A DNA stretch of 10,184 nucleotides from JAMORN01 sp027063545 [NCBI: bacterium] (GTDB taxonomy: Bacteria; JAMORN01). The notes beneath the pieces were generated by a model. It made no database searches. It saw only the letters and a program-made list of their open reading frames with translations, and was not told the origin of the DNA. Position numbers and translations under genes: made by a program. The stretch's first letter is position 1; every line of letters starts with the position of its first letter. Positions 3,950-9,521 of this stretch are shown here, piece by piece. The stretch lies in the NCBI GenBank assembly GCA_027063545.1, contig JAMORN010000081.1, positions 1 through 10,184 on the forward strand. The letters are read 5' to 3'.

Positions 3950-3981
3950 AAATTCCCCTACTTTGAAGTAGGGGAATTTTT
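3950..3981. terminator. Bidirectional intrinsic terminator between convergent genes
   Basis: A perfect inverted repeat has left arm AAATTCCCCTACTT (3950-3963) and right arm AAGTAGGGGAATTT (3966-3979), separated by TG; a realistic fold opens the inner pairs into a loop of 4-8 bases. On the plus strand the stem runs into TTTTT (3977-3981) and then a T-rich stretch, ideal for ending the barrel gene transcript. On the minus strand it is followed by an A/T-rich stretch with a poorer T-run, so it may also end the DUF3109-side transcript. The final six codons and the stop of the minus-strand gene lie inside the hairpin. Confidence 0.9.
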
Positions 3982-4535: not shown

Positions 4536-5432
4536 TTATAAATCCTTTGTAAATAAGTCCTCCACAAATTTTTCAGGATTAAATTCCTCTATATCTTCTA
4601 TTTTCTCTCCTGTTGTTATGTAATAAACAGGAACATTTAAAAATTCTTTTATAGAAAAAATAATTCCACCTCTAGCTGTACCATCTAGTTTTGTTAAAAT
4701 AATAGAAGTAACTCCTACTATATTACTAAAAACTTTTGCCTGTTCAATACCGTTTTTACCTGTTGTAGCATCTAATATTAATATAGTTTCATGAGGTAAA
4801 TCTGAAGAATGTTTTTTTAATACTCTCACAATCTTTTCCAATTCAGCCATTAAATACTTTTTATTATGAAGTCTTCCTGCTGTATCTATAATAACCACAT
4901 CAAAATTTTTAGATTTTGCTTTTTCATAAGCACTATAAGCTATAGCTGCTGGATCACTTCCTGGCATACCCTTCATCAATTCCACGTCTATCATTTCTGC
5001 CCATTTTTCAAGTTGTTCAATCGCTCCAGCTCTAAATGTATCAGCTGCAGCTATTAAAACTTTTTTCCCCTTATTTTTTAAAAGATTTGCCAATTTAGCT
5101 ATTGTTGTAGTTTTACCGACACCATTAACCCCAACTATTAAAATCACAAAAGGAGATTGGGTATTATCTATCTTTTCTATGAGAGGTGTTGTTTCATTAT
5201 ATAAAAGTTCTTGCAAATGCTTTTTTAATATATTCAAAAGTTCTTCTTTATCAACTTTTTTATCTATCTTTTCTTTTAATTCCTCTATTATTTTATCCAC
5301 CGTCTTTACAGAAATATCACTTTCTATTAAAAGTTCTTCTATTTCCCATAAATCCTCCTCTTCTATCTTTTCTTTTTTAAAAATACTTCTAATCTTAGAA
5401 AAACTATTTTTTATACCTTTAAATATAGCCAT
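4536..5432 (-). CDS. ftsY: Signal recognition particle receptor FtsY
   Basis: The SRP-family GTPase that docks SRP-bound ribosomes at the inner membrane for co-translational insertion of membrane proteins. At 298 residues it is the short form: a basic amphipathic start (MAIFKGIKNSFSKIRSIFKK) likely to contact the membrane, without the long acidic A domain of the E. coli protein. The N domain spans about 20-90. The G domain shows the P-loop GVNGVGKTTT (101-110), DTFRAGAIEQL (131-141), DTAGR (183-187), DATTGKNG (221-228), TKLDGTARGG (247-256) and the closing TGEKIEDIEEFNPEKFV (274-290). DTFRAGAIEQL and the closing motif point to FtsY and not Ffh, and no methionine-rich M domain is present. AAGGAG five bases before ATG fixes the start. 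It follows the HDOD gene by 12 nt, and its stop lies within the probable initiation region of the DUF3109 gene. Confidence 0.97.
   Translation of the reverse strand: MAIFKGIKNSFSKIRSIFKKEKIEEEDLWEIEELLIESDISVKTVDKIIEELKEKIDKKVDKEELLNILKKHLQELLYNETTPLIEKIDNTQSPFVILIVGVNGVGKTTTIAKLANLLKNKGKKVLIAAADTFRAGAIEQLEKWAEMIDVELMKGMPGSDPAAIAYSAYEKAKSKNFDVVIIDTAGRLHNKKYLMAELEKIVRVLKKHSSDLPHETILILDATTGKNGIEQAKVFSNIVGVTSIILTKLDGTARGGIIFSIKEFLNVPVYYITTGEKIEDIEEFNPEKFVEDLFTKDL
4543..4548 (-). promoter_or_regulatory. Candidate ribosome site for a non-canonical start of the DUF3109 gene
   Basis: AAAGGA on the minus strand lies inside the last codons of ftsY. It is 24 bases from the GTG at 4518, too far for normal initiation, but exactly nine bases from an in-frame ATA codon at 4533-4531. 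This spacing, with the family-like residues encoded between ATA and GTG, is the reason to suspect an upstream AUA start. A second purine stretch, GGAGGA (4558-4563), lies further upstream. Confidence 0.35.
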
Positions 5433-5444
5433 TTCATCTCCTTG

Positions 5445-6347
5445 TTAAACGCTATTTAATAGATTATTAAAATCTAAAATCTTTTCTTTTATATCGGATT
5501 CTTTATCTATTAAAAATTTTATATTAAAATTATATTCTTTGCTTATTCTTTCTATTATATTCTCTTTGCTTTCGTCAAAAACTTCTCCTTTAAACATATT
5601 AAAACCTAATTTATGAGAATAAAAATCTGCTATACTCACAATAAAAATGATTATTTTTTCTTTAGATATACAATCCTTTATCTCCTCAACAATTTTTTCT
5701 AGCTCTTTATATCCTTGATCCATACTCAATGCCTTACTAATAGTAGATGGCAACTTCCATGTTTTAGCTATTGCTTCCCCCACCATTGCTCCTGTTATTC
5801 CAAAAATTTCTAACTCCAGTTCCCTACATTCTATATAATTTTTACACTCGCCTAACCTTTCAACATACTCTTTATATTTATCCTTATATTTTCCATATAA
5901 AAATACCTTTCCTATATCATGAAGTAATGAACCTATATATCCCTCATCAGGTTCCAATTCCTTAAAAATTTCTGCATTTGTATTATATTGTAAAATCTCA
6001 CGGCAAATAACTGCAGAAGCCAAAGAATGAAGCCAAAAATTATTCTTATCATCTGTATAAGGTAAATCTATATCCATAAATTTTTTTAAACCTATAGATA
6101 TTAACATAGCAAATATTGCATTAAACCCTAGAAATAAAACAGCTTTTCTTACTGTTGTAATCTCTTCAGGTGGTGAATAAAAAGCTGAATTAGCTAGTTT
6201 TAATAATCTTATAGTAAAGCCTGGATCCTTTTCAATTAATGAAATTATTTTATCCGTATCAGGCTCTTCTTTTGATAATTCATTAAAAAGTAATGTTATA
6301 ATCTCAGGAAGAACCGGAAGATCTGAAATATTAAATTGGGTATCCAC
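5445..6347 (-). CDS. HDOD domain protein
   Basis: A stand-alone HDOD-domain protein of 300 residues. HDOD domains are HD-superfamily relatives, usually without proven hydrolase activity, found in bacterial signalling proteins. The family opening LPVLPEIITLLFNEL (10-24) is followed by ISLIEKDPGFTIRLLKLANS (35-54), FYSPPEEITTVRKAVLFLGF (56-75), WLHSLASAV (105-113) and GSLLHDIGKVFL (139-150). His107, His143 and Asp144 are retained. The later histidine usual in the G-x-x-H-x-x-V-G motif is replaced (GITGAMVG, 183-190), and the following HH pair is absent (ALSMDQ, 206-211), so metal-dependent catalysis is unlikely. The C-terminal 80 residues are lysine- and glutamate-rich helices of unknown role, and no output domain is fused. 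It starts with GTG, confirmed by AAGGAG five bases upstream, and lies 20 nt after the barrel gene and 12 nt before ftsY, so it is probably co-transcribed with both. Confidence 0.92.
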   Translation of the reverse strand: MDTQFNISDLPVLPEIITLLFNELSKEEPDTDKIISLIEKDPGFTIRLLKLANSAFYSPPEEITTVRKAVLFLGFNAIFAMLISIGLKKFMDIDLPYTDDKNNFWLHSLASAVICREILQYNTNAEIFKELEPDEGYIGSLLHDIGKVFLYGKYKDKYKEYVERLGECKNYIECRELELEIFGITGAMVGEAIAKTWKLPSTISKALSMDQGYKELEKIVEEIKDCISKEKIIIFIVSIADFYSHKLGFNMFKGEVFDESKENIIERISKEYNFNIKFLIDKESDIKEKILDFNNLLNSV

Positions 6348-7146: not shown

Positions 7147-8283
7147 TTAAAAATAATATTCTTCTATTGGTGGTATAGGTTCTATTTTTATATTATAAAA
7201 CGTTAAATTTATCTCTATAGGCTTTGGTAATCTTCTACCCTGCTCATCATATAATAAATGTATAACAGGAATCTTATCTTTTCTTTCTATATTATCTCTT
7301 ACTACAACTCCTTTATAATTCGAAAATCTCCCTCTATCTTCAACTTTTACCCAAATTCCCTCTGGATATATATTTAATTTAAATCTTAAGGCTTTTACTA
7401 CATCTATATTAAATTCATCGGGATTTAAGTACAAATCTCTAAGTACATCTCTTAAATTTATATAAAAATCATCATTATTACTATAATTTACATTTTTTTC
7501 GTAAAAAAATACAACTTTTATTATTGAACTAGATAGAGTTATGGTATCCTTTTGAGGAATATTAATAAACTTTTTACTTCCATACTTAACAATCCTACCT
7601 ATAATAATTGGAGAAAAAGGAATCTTAGAGATTAAATAGTAAGAATAATCCCCTATTGCCATAGGAAAAAAATCATTCCAGTAATCGTCTAAATCTTCTA
7701 TTGAAAGAATAAGTCTTCCAGAAAAGAACAATAAAGAAGCTATTAATAAAAAGGACAGCTGGGTTAAATCTAATTTAAGTCGATATCCTGTAATTACAGA
7801 AATTATAGAGATTGAGATAGACCTCCAATAAAGGGATTCATCATATTTTCTTAAAAGTAATAAAGGATATAACAAAAGATCACCATCTCTATTTTCTAAA
7901 TATATATTCCATATATTTTTTATCTCGTCTCTTATTACTCTTGAATAAACTACTCCCTTATAATTATCACTATATATACTAAATCTTTTAAAATAGTCTT
8001 CTTTTATAATATTTTTTACTATTTCTTTTATACATTTTTTATGGTTAATATAGTGTTTTGAATATATCTCTATTTTTTTTGTAAAAAAATCAAAATTTCT
8101 CTGTAAATCATCTTCTATAGTATAATCTACTATAACCTCATCTATTTTTAACTTTTTTAGAATATCTATAACCTCTTTTGTTATTACAACTCCAGGGACT
8201 AATACTGCTACTCTATTTTCATCATATATGTAGGTTGCAATTATATCCCCTTCTTTTAAATCTTCTATTTTTCTCTTTATCAT
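7147..8283 (-). CDS. Degenerate HD-GYP family protein with DUF3391-like N-terminus (pseudo-enzyme)
   Basis: A 378-residue protein whose outline follows HD-GYP cyclic-di-GMP phosphodiesterases, although the catalytic residues are gone. Residues 4-55 resemble the DUF3391 start (IEDLKEGDIIAT, LVPGVVITKEVIDILKKLKI). The middle keeps LLLLRKYDESLYWRSISIS (141-159), the counterpart of the family L-x-x-x-R-x-Y-D-E-Y-T-x-x-H-S. The end keeps IYPEGIWVKV (305-314) and IHLLYDEQGR (341-350), the usual C-terminal strands. Against the consensus, the first His is Arg154, the HD pair is Phe186-Phe187 (SLLFFSGR), the HP histidine is Phe, the HHE motif is KYGSKK (233-238), and GYP is probably NIP (241-243). It cannot be expected to hydrolyse c-di-GMP; it may bind a nucleotide or a partner. 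The frame is uninterrupted, so it is not a decayed gene. ATG overlaps the mtaB stop (ATGA), with GAGG about ten bases upstream. Confidence 0.8.
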   Translation of the reverse strand: MIKRKIEDLKEGDIIATYIYDENRVAVLVPGVVITKEVIDILKKLKIDEVIVDYTIEDDLQRNFDFFTKKIEIYSKHYINHKKCIKEIVKNIIKEDYFKRFSIYSDNYKGVVYSRVIRDEIKNIWNIYLENRDGDLLLYPLLLLRKYDESLYWRSISISIISVITGYRLKLDLTQLSFLLIASLLFFSGRLILSIEDLDDYWNDFFPMAIGDYSYYLISKIPFSPIIIGRIVKYGSKKFINIPQKDTITLSSSIIKVVFFYEKNVNYSNNDDFYINLRDVLRDLYLNPDEFNIDVVKALRFKLNIYPEGIWVKVEDRGRFSNYKGVVVRDNIERKDKIPVIHLLYDEQGRRLPKPIEINLTFYNIKIEPIPPIEEYYF

Positions 8284-9521
8284 ATAATAGTAGCCTCGTA
8301 GAATGGATATTCTAATTTATCTTTTATTTTAATATAATAAATATTATCCCTTCTTAAAAAATTTGATTTAACTTTTATATCTATAAAATTTTCTGTCTTA
8401 CCAGTATAATAAACACCATGTTTTTCCTCTGGAATAAAAGAAAACTCATAATGTTTTATAGATTCTATAAAATTAATCTTCTTTCTTTTACCTAGTTCCT
8501 GAAGAATCTTTAGCCTTCTTTTTTTTTCTTCTGTTGAAATATTATCATTCATTTCATTAAATATCAAACTCCCTTTCCTATGGGAATAGGTAAAAACATG
8601 GTAATGTTCTATAGGTTGACTCTCAAAAAATCTATATATCTCCTCAAAATCCTTTTTTGTTTCTGAAGGGAAACCTACAATAATATCTGTTCCTAACATA
8701 ATCTTTTCATTTATAGATTTAATTTCATATATCAATCTTTTATAAAAATCTAAATTAAAAGGTCTTCTCATTAATCTTAATATCTTTTCACTTCCTGATT
8801 GTATTGGAATATGAAAAAAAGGACAAAGTCTTTTATCTTCTATTGTTAATTTAGCTAGTTCTATATTAAAATCCCAAGGTTCTATTGATGATATTCTTAG
8901 TCTAAACTCTAAAGGTATATTTAAAATTTTATCCACTAATTTTACTAAATTATAACCATTATAATTATACCTAGCTATATTGGTTCCTGTTAATATTATC
9001 TCTTTTACACCATTTTCTAAAACAAAGGTTACCTCTTCTAATATTTCATTTATATTCCTTGAAGTCTCCTTCCCTCTTAAATTAGGAATTATACAATAAC
9101 TACATTTACTATTACACCCTGTCTGTATTAAGATGTTATAGCGTGTTTTAAAATCCTCTATTGAATCTTTTTTTCTATATGCTACATTTTGGATTCCTAA
9201 AATTTCATAAAATTTTGTAAATTTATCTTTATTTTTTATTAATATTATATTCTTATTACTTTTAAAATCATCCTTTATCCCATTACCATCTATTAAGCAA
9301 CCTGATACTATTATTTTAGAATTAGGATAGTTCTTTAATAAAGTCTTTATCTTATAATTTGATTTTCTTTCGGCATTTTTTGTTACCATACATGTGTTTA
9401 ATACTACAATATCTGGGTTACCAAAATCTATGATAAAATCATTTGATAGAGTATTAATCCATCTTTGAATTTCAGATATATTAGTTCTACATCCAATATT
9501 AAAAAAAGCTATTTTCTTCAT
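8280..9521 (-). CDS. mtaB: tRNA t6A37 methylthiotransferase MtaB
   Basis: A radical-SAM methylthiotransferase that would convert t6A to ms2t6A at position 37 of ANN-decoding tRNAs. The 413-residue protein has the three family domains. The N-terminal MTTase domain has cluster cysteines Cys11 (NIGCRTN), Cys44 (LNTCMVT) and Cys75 (VSGCLID). The radical-SAM domain has Cys136, Cys140 and Cys143 (GCNSKCSYC), then ILTGTNIARY (176-185), RISSIEPWD (209-217), FFHIPIQSGSEKILRLMRRP (235-254) and GTDIIVGFPSET (277-288). A short TRAM-like tail with YTGKTENFIDIKV (372-384) follows. The GC-x-x-N opening and length favour MtaB over MiaB (longer, acting on i6A) and RimO. It lies 15 nt after the GalT-like gene and overlaps the next gene by 4 nt. 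No Shine-Dalgarno sequence is visible before its ATG, which is preceded by A/T-only sequence. Confidence 0.93.
   Translation of the reverse strand: MKKIAFFNIGCRTNISEIQRWINTLSNDFIIDFGNPDIVVLNTCMVTKNAERKSNYKIKTLLKNYPNSKIIVSGCLIDGNGIKDDFKSNKNIILIKNKDKFTKFYEILGIQNVAYRKKDSIEDFKTRYNILIQTGCNSKCSYCIIPNLRGKETSRNINEILEEVTFVLENGVKEIILTGTNIARYNYNGYNLVKLVDKILNIPLEFRLRISSIEPWDFNIELAKLTIEDKRLCPFFHIPIQSGSEKILRLMRRPFNLDFYKRLIYEIKSINEKIMLGTDIIVGFPSETKKDFEEIYRFFESQPIEHYHVFTYSHRKGSLIFNEMNDNISTEEKKRRLKILQELGKRKKINFIESIKHYEFSFIPEEKHGVYYTGKTENFIDIKVKSNFLRRDNIYYIKIKDKLEYPFYEATII

Follow-up and report, generated by a model that had tools for sequence, protein, structure and literature searches.

The window analysed here, 10,184 nt long, is the whole of contig C81 in a draft genome of 1.57 Mb (355 contigs, 83% complete). 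Seven genes form a packed run on its minus strand, separated by gaps of -4 to 20 nt and coding for a DUF4921 protein, an MtaB-like methylthiotransferase, the protein studied here (P0001), a Pfam-less protein, an HDOD protein, an ftsY-like product and a DUF3109 protein (Table 1). The original prediction read P0001 as an intact HD-GYP-type protein in which the recognisable metal ligands had been replaced, and as a maintained pseudo-enzyme acting as a ligand sensor or scaffold. Its coordinates, strand and open reading are confirmed: the frame runs from an ATG at 8283 to a stop at 7147 and codes for 378 aa.

Table 1. Features of P0001 and of neighbouring genes in the window.
Feature	Position	Strand	Evidence or remark
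P0001, HD-GYP-derived protein lacking the metal site	7147..8283	-	open frame, 22-relative profile, hhalign
N-terminal DUF3391-like domain, residues 1-75	8059..8283	-	profile on the piece alone E=1.8e-8; PF11871 no match
Residues 134-185, start of HD-GYP core, kept; D148 (= D183 of PmGH), R154 for H189	7729..7884	-	
Residues 186-288, former catalytic block, unmatched by the profile; F186F187, HHE deleted, KFI, F259	7420..7728	-	
Residues 289-378, core end and C-terminal tail	7150..7419	-	profile domain 2, residues 289-361, 35 bits
MiaB/RimO-family methylthiotransferase (MtaB-like), upstream in the same putative operon	8280..9521	-	ATGA overlap (4 nt)
HDOD-domain protein, two genes downstream of P0001 in the run	5445..6347	-	PF08668 E=2.7e-44; gaps 20 and 12 nt
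ftsY-like gene, same run	4536..5432	-	open frame; gap 12 nt

Among the neighbours, the upstream gene had been named mtaB. The ATGA overlap with P0001 stands. The product passes the MiaB/RimO subfamily model (TIGR00089) but misses the MtaB equivalog cut-off (303.9 vs 357.05 bits) and is called MtaB-like here. The last gene but one of the run codes for what we take, from its sequence, to be FtsY, the SRP receptor. The HDOD protein retains the motif LLHDIGK, while its later His positions are missing by eye; matches to PF08668 exceed the cut-off at five places in the genome. At 3950-3979, between two convergently transcribed genes, lies a 13-pair hairpin flanked by a T-rich stretch; it overlaps the DUF3109 gene at its 3' end and is likely a two-way terminator. 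A promoter scan of the window returned 46 sites, with 49.2 expected. Among the matches listed, the surroundings of P0001 relatives inspected by eye are unlike those of P0001.

The reading frame of P0001 has the properties of a coding sequence. At the composition of the window (27.5% GC), stops make up 8.4% of codons, and a random frame of 378 codons would be open with a probability of about 4e-15. In a codon model derived from the remaining genes of the window, whose own scores are flattered by this while P0001 was held out, synonymous codon use gives 0.086 per codon for P0001 and 0.057-0.138 for the others. All five other frames of P0001 score negative in the same model.

Standard family models do not recognise the protein. 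A Pfam scan returned no HD, HDOD or DUF3391 match and, subject to the filters of HMMER, no HD_5 match to E=10; no Pfam match came near its cut-off, no NCBIfam match was obtained, and phmmer against PDB sequences gave no HD-GYP match up to E=10. Searching its own genome with PF13487 at E<=1 listed contigs C227, C123, C228 and C219, C81 being absent. PF08668 does not match P0001 either, and in C81 the genome search with this model gives only the neighbour, at 5724-6320. The profile comparison proposed for the original prediction gives two answers: Pfam HD_5 and DUF3391 fail, but a profile of 22 relatives from which P0001 was left out gives it E=1.9e-27, where the best among 2000 shuffles reaches 0.13, and matches residues 1-185 and 289-361. 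An unrelated protein is ruled out by this difference between the relatives' profile and the shuffles. Scored alone, residues 1-75 (E=1.8e-8), the tail 298-378 (2.4e-8) and the core 134-303 (7.4e-6) each stand clear of the best piece shuffle (0.26), while the linker piece 76-138 stays within shuffles and carries no signal. Using hhalign, the probability reaches 99.4% over residues 1-363, and BLASTP against the paralogue on contig C123 of the same genome gives E=4e-10 over residues 1-196.

A match to P0001 at E<=0.01 occurs in 39 of 386 genomes, its own genome counted. BLASTP against a set of loci matched 27 other frames, among which the C123 gene appears twice; 25 of the 27 carry HD.GK or HHE...GYP by pattern, L029 has a variant in the alignment, and L038 has none. 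The alignment has 26 rows, P0001 and 25 frames, with L003 and L006 added by name; loci that were not aligned include L018, L023, L024, L026, L027, L030, L032 and L034. Column and histidine counts refer to 23 relatives, leaving out L038 (a chance match whose block lacks His) and L004 (a cut fragment with 2 His); the profile additionally omits L035_-1, and the tree holds 21 relatives. Two of the loci have peculiarities of their own: in L004 (G055:C309) the HD-GYP gene is split over two overlapping frames, perhaps by a frameshift, and L019 (G141:C1) has a pair of nearby HD-GYP genes on the same strand, whose catalytic ends are identical as far as the locus reaches.

As predicted, P0001 has retained its N-terminal part, its RKYDESLYWRS block and its YPEG...LLYDEQGR tail, all of which can be aligned with HD-GYP proteins. 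The name DUF3391-like for the N-terminus can be retained in a restricted sense: the Pfam domain DUF3391 (PF11871) is not matched by P0001, so the label rests on resemblance to relatives, and even in these PF11871 is listed in four of the seven scanned, always under its cut-off, and unlisted in the other three. The tail follows the pattern iYPeG..V...kGvVv...P.i.LlyDe.G. AlphaFold2 modelling of residues 296-378 from the single sequence gives five strands at pLDDT 67, possibly forming a small beta barrel. Fold searches with this model found nothing significant (Foldseek best E=1.1, VIA-align best Z=4.3), a result that is still compatible with relatives by fold. The whole protein, modelled likewise from a single sequence without alignment, reaches pLDDT 33, too low to be used. 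Weak KOW-motif similarity was seen in the tails of two of the seven relatives scanned, L014:411-1604 and L022:1483-2673 (16.6 and 19.4 bits, below the cut-off of 22.3).

The active site is numbered here according to PmGH (PMC4159591). In an alignment that includes P0001, and with relatives chosen by similarity to it and thus not a random HD-GYP sample, P0001 keeps none of the 12 conserved catalytic and substrate columns, compared with 9-12 in each of the 23 relatives. Other conserved columns are kept in 17 of 33 cases, fewer than in any relative (23-31), and the contrast between 0/12 and 17/33 within P0001 is significant (Fisher p=0.0013). Alignments bear out the predicted replacements of the HD pair by FF (F186 and F187 for H221 and D222) and of the first His by R154 (H189). 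The HHE motif is replaced as well, with H276 and H277 deleted and GYP represented by KFI in the MAFFT alignment, and KYGSKKFINIP stands where HHExxDGxGYP would be required. E185 corresponds to S150, in a column with Y or F in 18 of the 23 relatives, and further substitutions are F259 for D305, R190 for K225, S268 for R314 and D271 for K317. The column of H250 holds M208, I210 or I221 in three alignments, and never His. The YdAL block had been described as gone, and this is true of D305, lost as F259, but Y261 remains, as does the acidic E262 in the D308 column (four of the 23 relatives also have E there). D183 persists as D148.

P0001 has only three histidines, at positions 77, 81 and 342, and its core is consequently His-free, while every one of the 23 relatives has 4-11 in the corresponding block. 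Ligands hidden elsewhere in the protein are ruled out by the lack of His at 82-341. As judged from the alignments, every metal ligand of the HD-GYP site is lost in P0001. Alanine mutants of PmGH ligands are reported to be essentially inactive, except E185A and D305A, in which activity was markedly reduced (PMC4159591); by this established knowledge, c-di-GMP phosphodiesterase activity is predicted to be lost in P0001. Searching 386 genomes with the catalytic block (186-288) alone gave four foreign matches at E<=0.01 per genome, about the chance expectation, the best of them in a protein that is glycosidase-like by eye. Descent from DUF3391-like/HD-GYP proteins, with 0/12 active-site columns kept vs 17/33 others and a His-free stretch from 82 to 341, makes the predicted pseudo-enzyme status of P0001 well supported.

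Inactive HD-GYP proteins are already known, and P0001 adds a further, perhaps more extreme member. It combines HD-GYP descent, substituted catalytic residues and kept flanks, as do inactive regulators of the PA2572/Leptospira type. Leptospira interrogans LIC_10122, LIC_10138 and LIC_10139 have the same three-part build by their published description, to which the likeness refers rather than to a comparison residue by residue: a DUF3391-like N-terminus, a substituted HD-GYP domain and an unannotated C-terminus of beta-strands, which is barrel-like in LIC_10138 and LIC_10139 (PMC12943098). The same source regards the three as catalytically inactive, considers c-di-GMP binding unlikely, notes that changes of this sort may be tolerated by HD-GYP domains, and describes LIC_10122 as missed by standard annotation, with a poorly conserved GYP (PMC12943098). 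Pseudomonas aeruginosa PA2572 (REC + YN-GYP) differs in having a REC input domain instead of the DUF3391-like one and, as its name implies, in keeping GYP; it is reported to show no detectable c-di-GMP phosphodiesterase activity while its regulatory effects remain, and in the two-hybrid results described, the REC domain interacted whereas the YN-GYP domain alone did not with the constructs tested (PMC3411652). The HD-GYP domain of Bdellovibrio Bd1817 is inactive too (PMC4159591), and its N-terminus is of the DUF3391 type (structure 3TM8; PMC12943098). According to the same report on the domain, however, Bd1817 still binds two irons, and its GYP motif is without the Tyr (PMC4159591), whereas in P0001 the metal site itself is erased. 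VC1087 and VCA0895 are named as further inactive HD-GYP proteins (PMC4212101). Our literature search found no paper pairing HD-GYP with the term 'pseudoenzyme'.

The paralogue on contig C123 of its own genome (G000:C123, L005:901-2079:-) shares the architecture of P0001 but passes PF13487 and keeps the His ligands, HHE and GYP. In this paralogue HD reads HN and K225 is M, so both DUF3391-type members found in the genome are altered. At its start it shares 4 nt with an ATPase gene that is MoxR-like by eye. HDOD domains are HD relatives thought to be non-catalytic output modules. One of them is encoded in the same gene run as P0001, which itself fails PF08668.

It was also claimed that P0001 is maintained. 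Indirect support comes from the uninterrupted frame, from codon use that fits this frame, from the packed position with its overlap with the upstream gene, and from the retention of both flanks. Against it stand the smaller number of other conserved columns retained and the lack of any orthologue in the searches; moreover, the protein is fast-evolving, and its long branch equally fits relaxed constraint: the end branch measures 2.28 changes per column outside the catalytic block (median 1.12) and 3.91 with the block (median 0.96), and the tree of 21 relatives does not place P0001. A genome-contig scan for orthologues gave 33 stretches, none confirmed, and a plasmid scan gave none; both scans may omit the window's own or very near genomes, and the collection searched contains one genome of this phylum. 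As a query in genome contigs, the MtaB-like gene found only two loci, at 32-33% identity. Further scans for HD-GYP relatives confirmed none in 161 stretches, and the seven motif-holding frames of at least 100 aa in a scan of 14 stretches were not HD-GYP by eye.

A silenced, redundant HD-GYP copy that drifts without function behind an intact frame, at an early stage of decay, would explain the long branch, the odd amino-acid make-up, the catalytic half unmatched by the profile and the shortfall in other conserved columns (17/33 vs 23-31), and it would suit this reading that the genome codes for another HD-GYP protein whose HD motif is altered. We nevertheless give it a lesser, if real, chance, because 2.3-3.9 changes per column would hardly accumulate without a stop, at 8.4% stops among random codons, unless the frame were under selection, and because codon use remains in frame and the gene sits inside a packed run. 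That frameshifts or misassembly scrambled an ordinary HD-GYP gene might be thought of in a draft assembly of this completeness and fragmentation, and yet we regard such an artefact as next to negligible. Within the block, the other two frames of the same strand hold 15-16 stops and no HD-GYP signal, which excludes a simple hidden frameshift; the three antisense frames carry no signal either, and G189 and I254 are in register within the P0001 frame.

The protein probably works without catalysis, in a role based on protein contacts, as a regulator or a scaffold; such a role has been proposed for other inactive HD-GYP proteins and for HDOD domains. Under this reading, an ancestral HD-GYP phosphodiesterase of the DUF3391-like/HD-GYP/beta-tail type would have lost its metal centre as three aligned polar ligands became Phe (F186, F187 and F259) and the loop bearing HHE...GYP was shortened and rewritten. 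The helical core might still fold, packed by these side chains in place of iron, and P0001 would then serve as a non-catalytic protein-interaction module in a cell with a c-di-GMP system. The scaffold role named in the original prediction would fall within this reading, and the first candidates for partners are the products of neighbouring genes of the run, together with further HD-GYP or GGDEF proteins of this genome.

An enzyme re-invented on other residues, with carboxylates or other side chains forming an active site elsewhere, could draw on Asp residues at 197-204, 271-272 and 279-283 and on the kept D183 (D148); it is very improbable given that residues 82-341 are devoid of His and hold one Cys only (C84), and that P0001 has neither an NCBIfam match nor a Pfam match near its cut-off. 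The predicted ligand sensor, i.e. a receptor that binds c-di-GMP or another nucleotide without cleaving it and signals by conformational change, has more to recommend it. Degenerate EAL and GGDEF proteins are established as c-di-GMP receptors, and the GGDEF and PilZ genes of the genome have kept motifs. However, substrate contacts have changed along with every metal ligand, GYP, R314 and K317 being altered together (KFI, S268 and D271), and for this reason the receptor is less favoured than protein interaction. The loss of these residues is not decisive against binding, because alanines in GYP, at R314 or at K317 are reported not to have substantially lowered PmGH activity (PMC4159591). On the other hand, the Leptospira DUF3391/HD-GYP proteins without substrate residues were judged unlikely to contact c-di-GMP (PMC12943098). 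On balance a receptor is possible but unlikely, and a protein-contact role is the reading we prefer.

The genome carries what looks, from motifs, like a working c-di-GMP set. It has three GGDEF matches with GG(D/E)EF and one PilZ match, and PF13487 exceeds its cut-off on three contigs, C227, C228 and C123. The protein on C227 keeps HD, HHE and GYP, its N-terminus being cut by the contig end; the one on C228 keeps HD, the rest being cut by the contig end. On contig C47 (G000:C47, L053) a GGDEF gene lies near another HDOD-like gene. A bolder form of the protein-contact reading, which we hold to be quite unlikely as a whole, is that the exchange of the iron centre for aromatic packing created a new metal-free output module, an analogue of HDOD yet separate from it. 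Co-expressed with the methylthiotransferase, the HDOD protein and presumably FtsY (the SRP receptor), it would tie c-di-GMP-type machinery to translation or targeting by protein contacts alone, in an isolated phylum.

The case consists of one protein in one draft genome. It represents an extreme loss of the active site in the HD-GYP family, with a catalytic half that is profile-invisible and His-free between two kept flanks. If P0001 folds and is kept, an HD core can be stabilised without metal. Since annotation by family profiles misses such proteins, inactive HD-GYP regulators may be under-counted.
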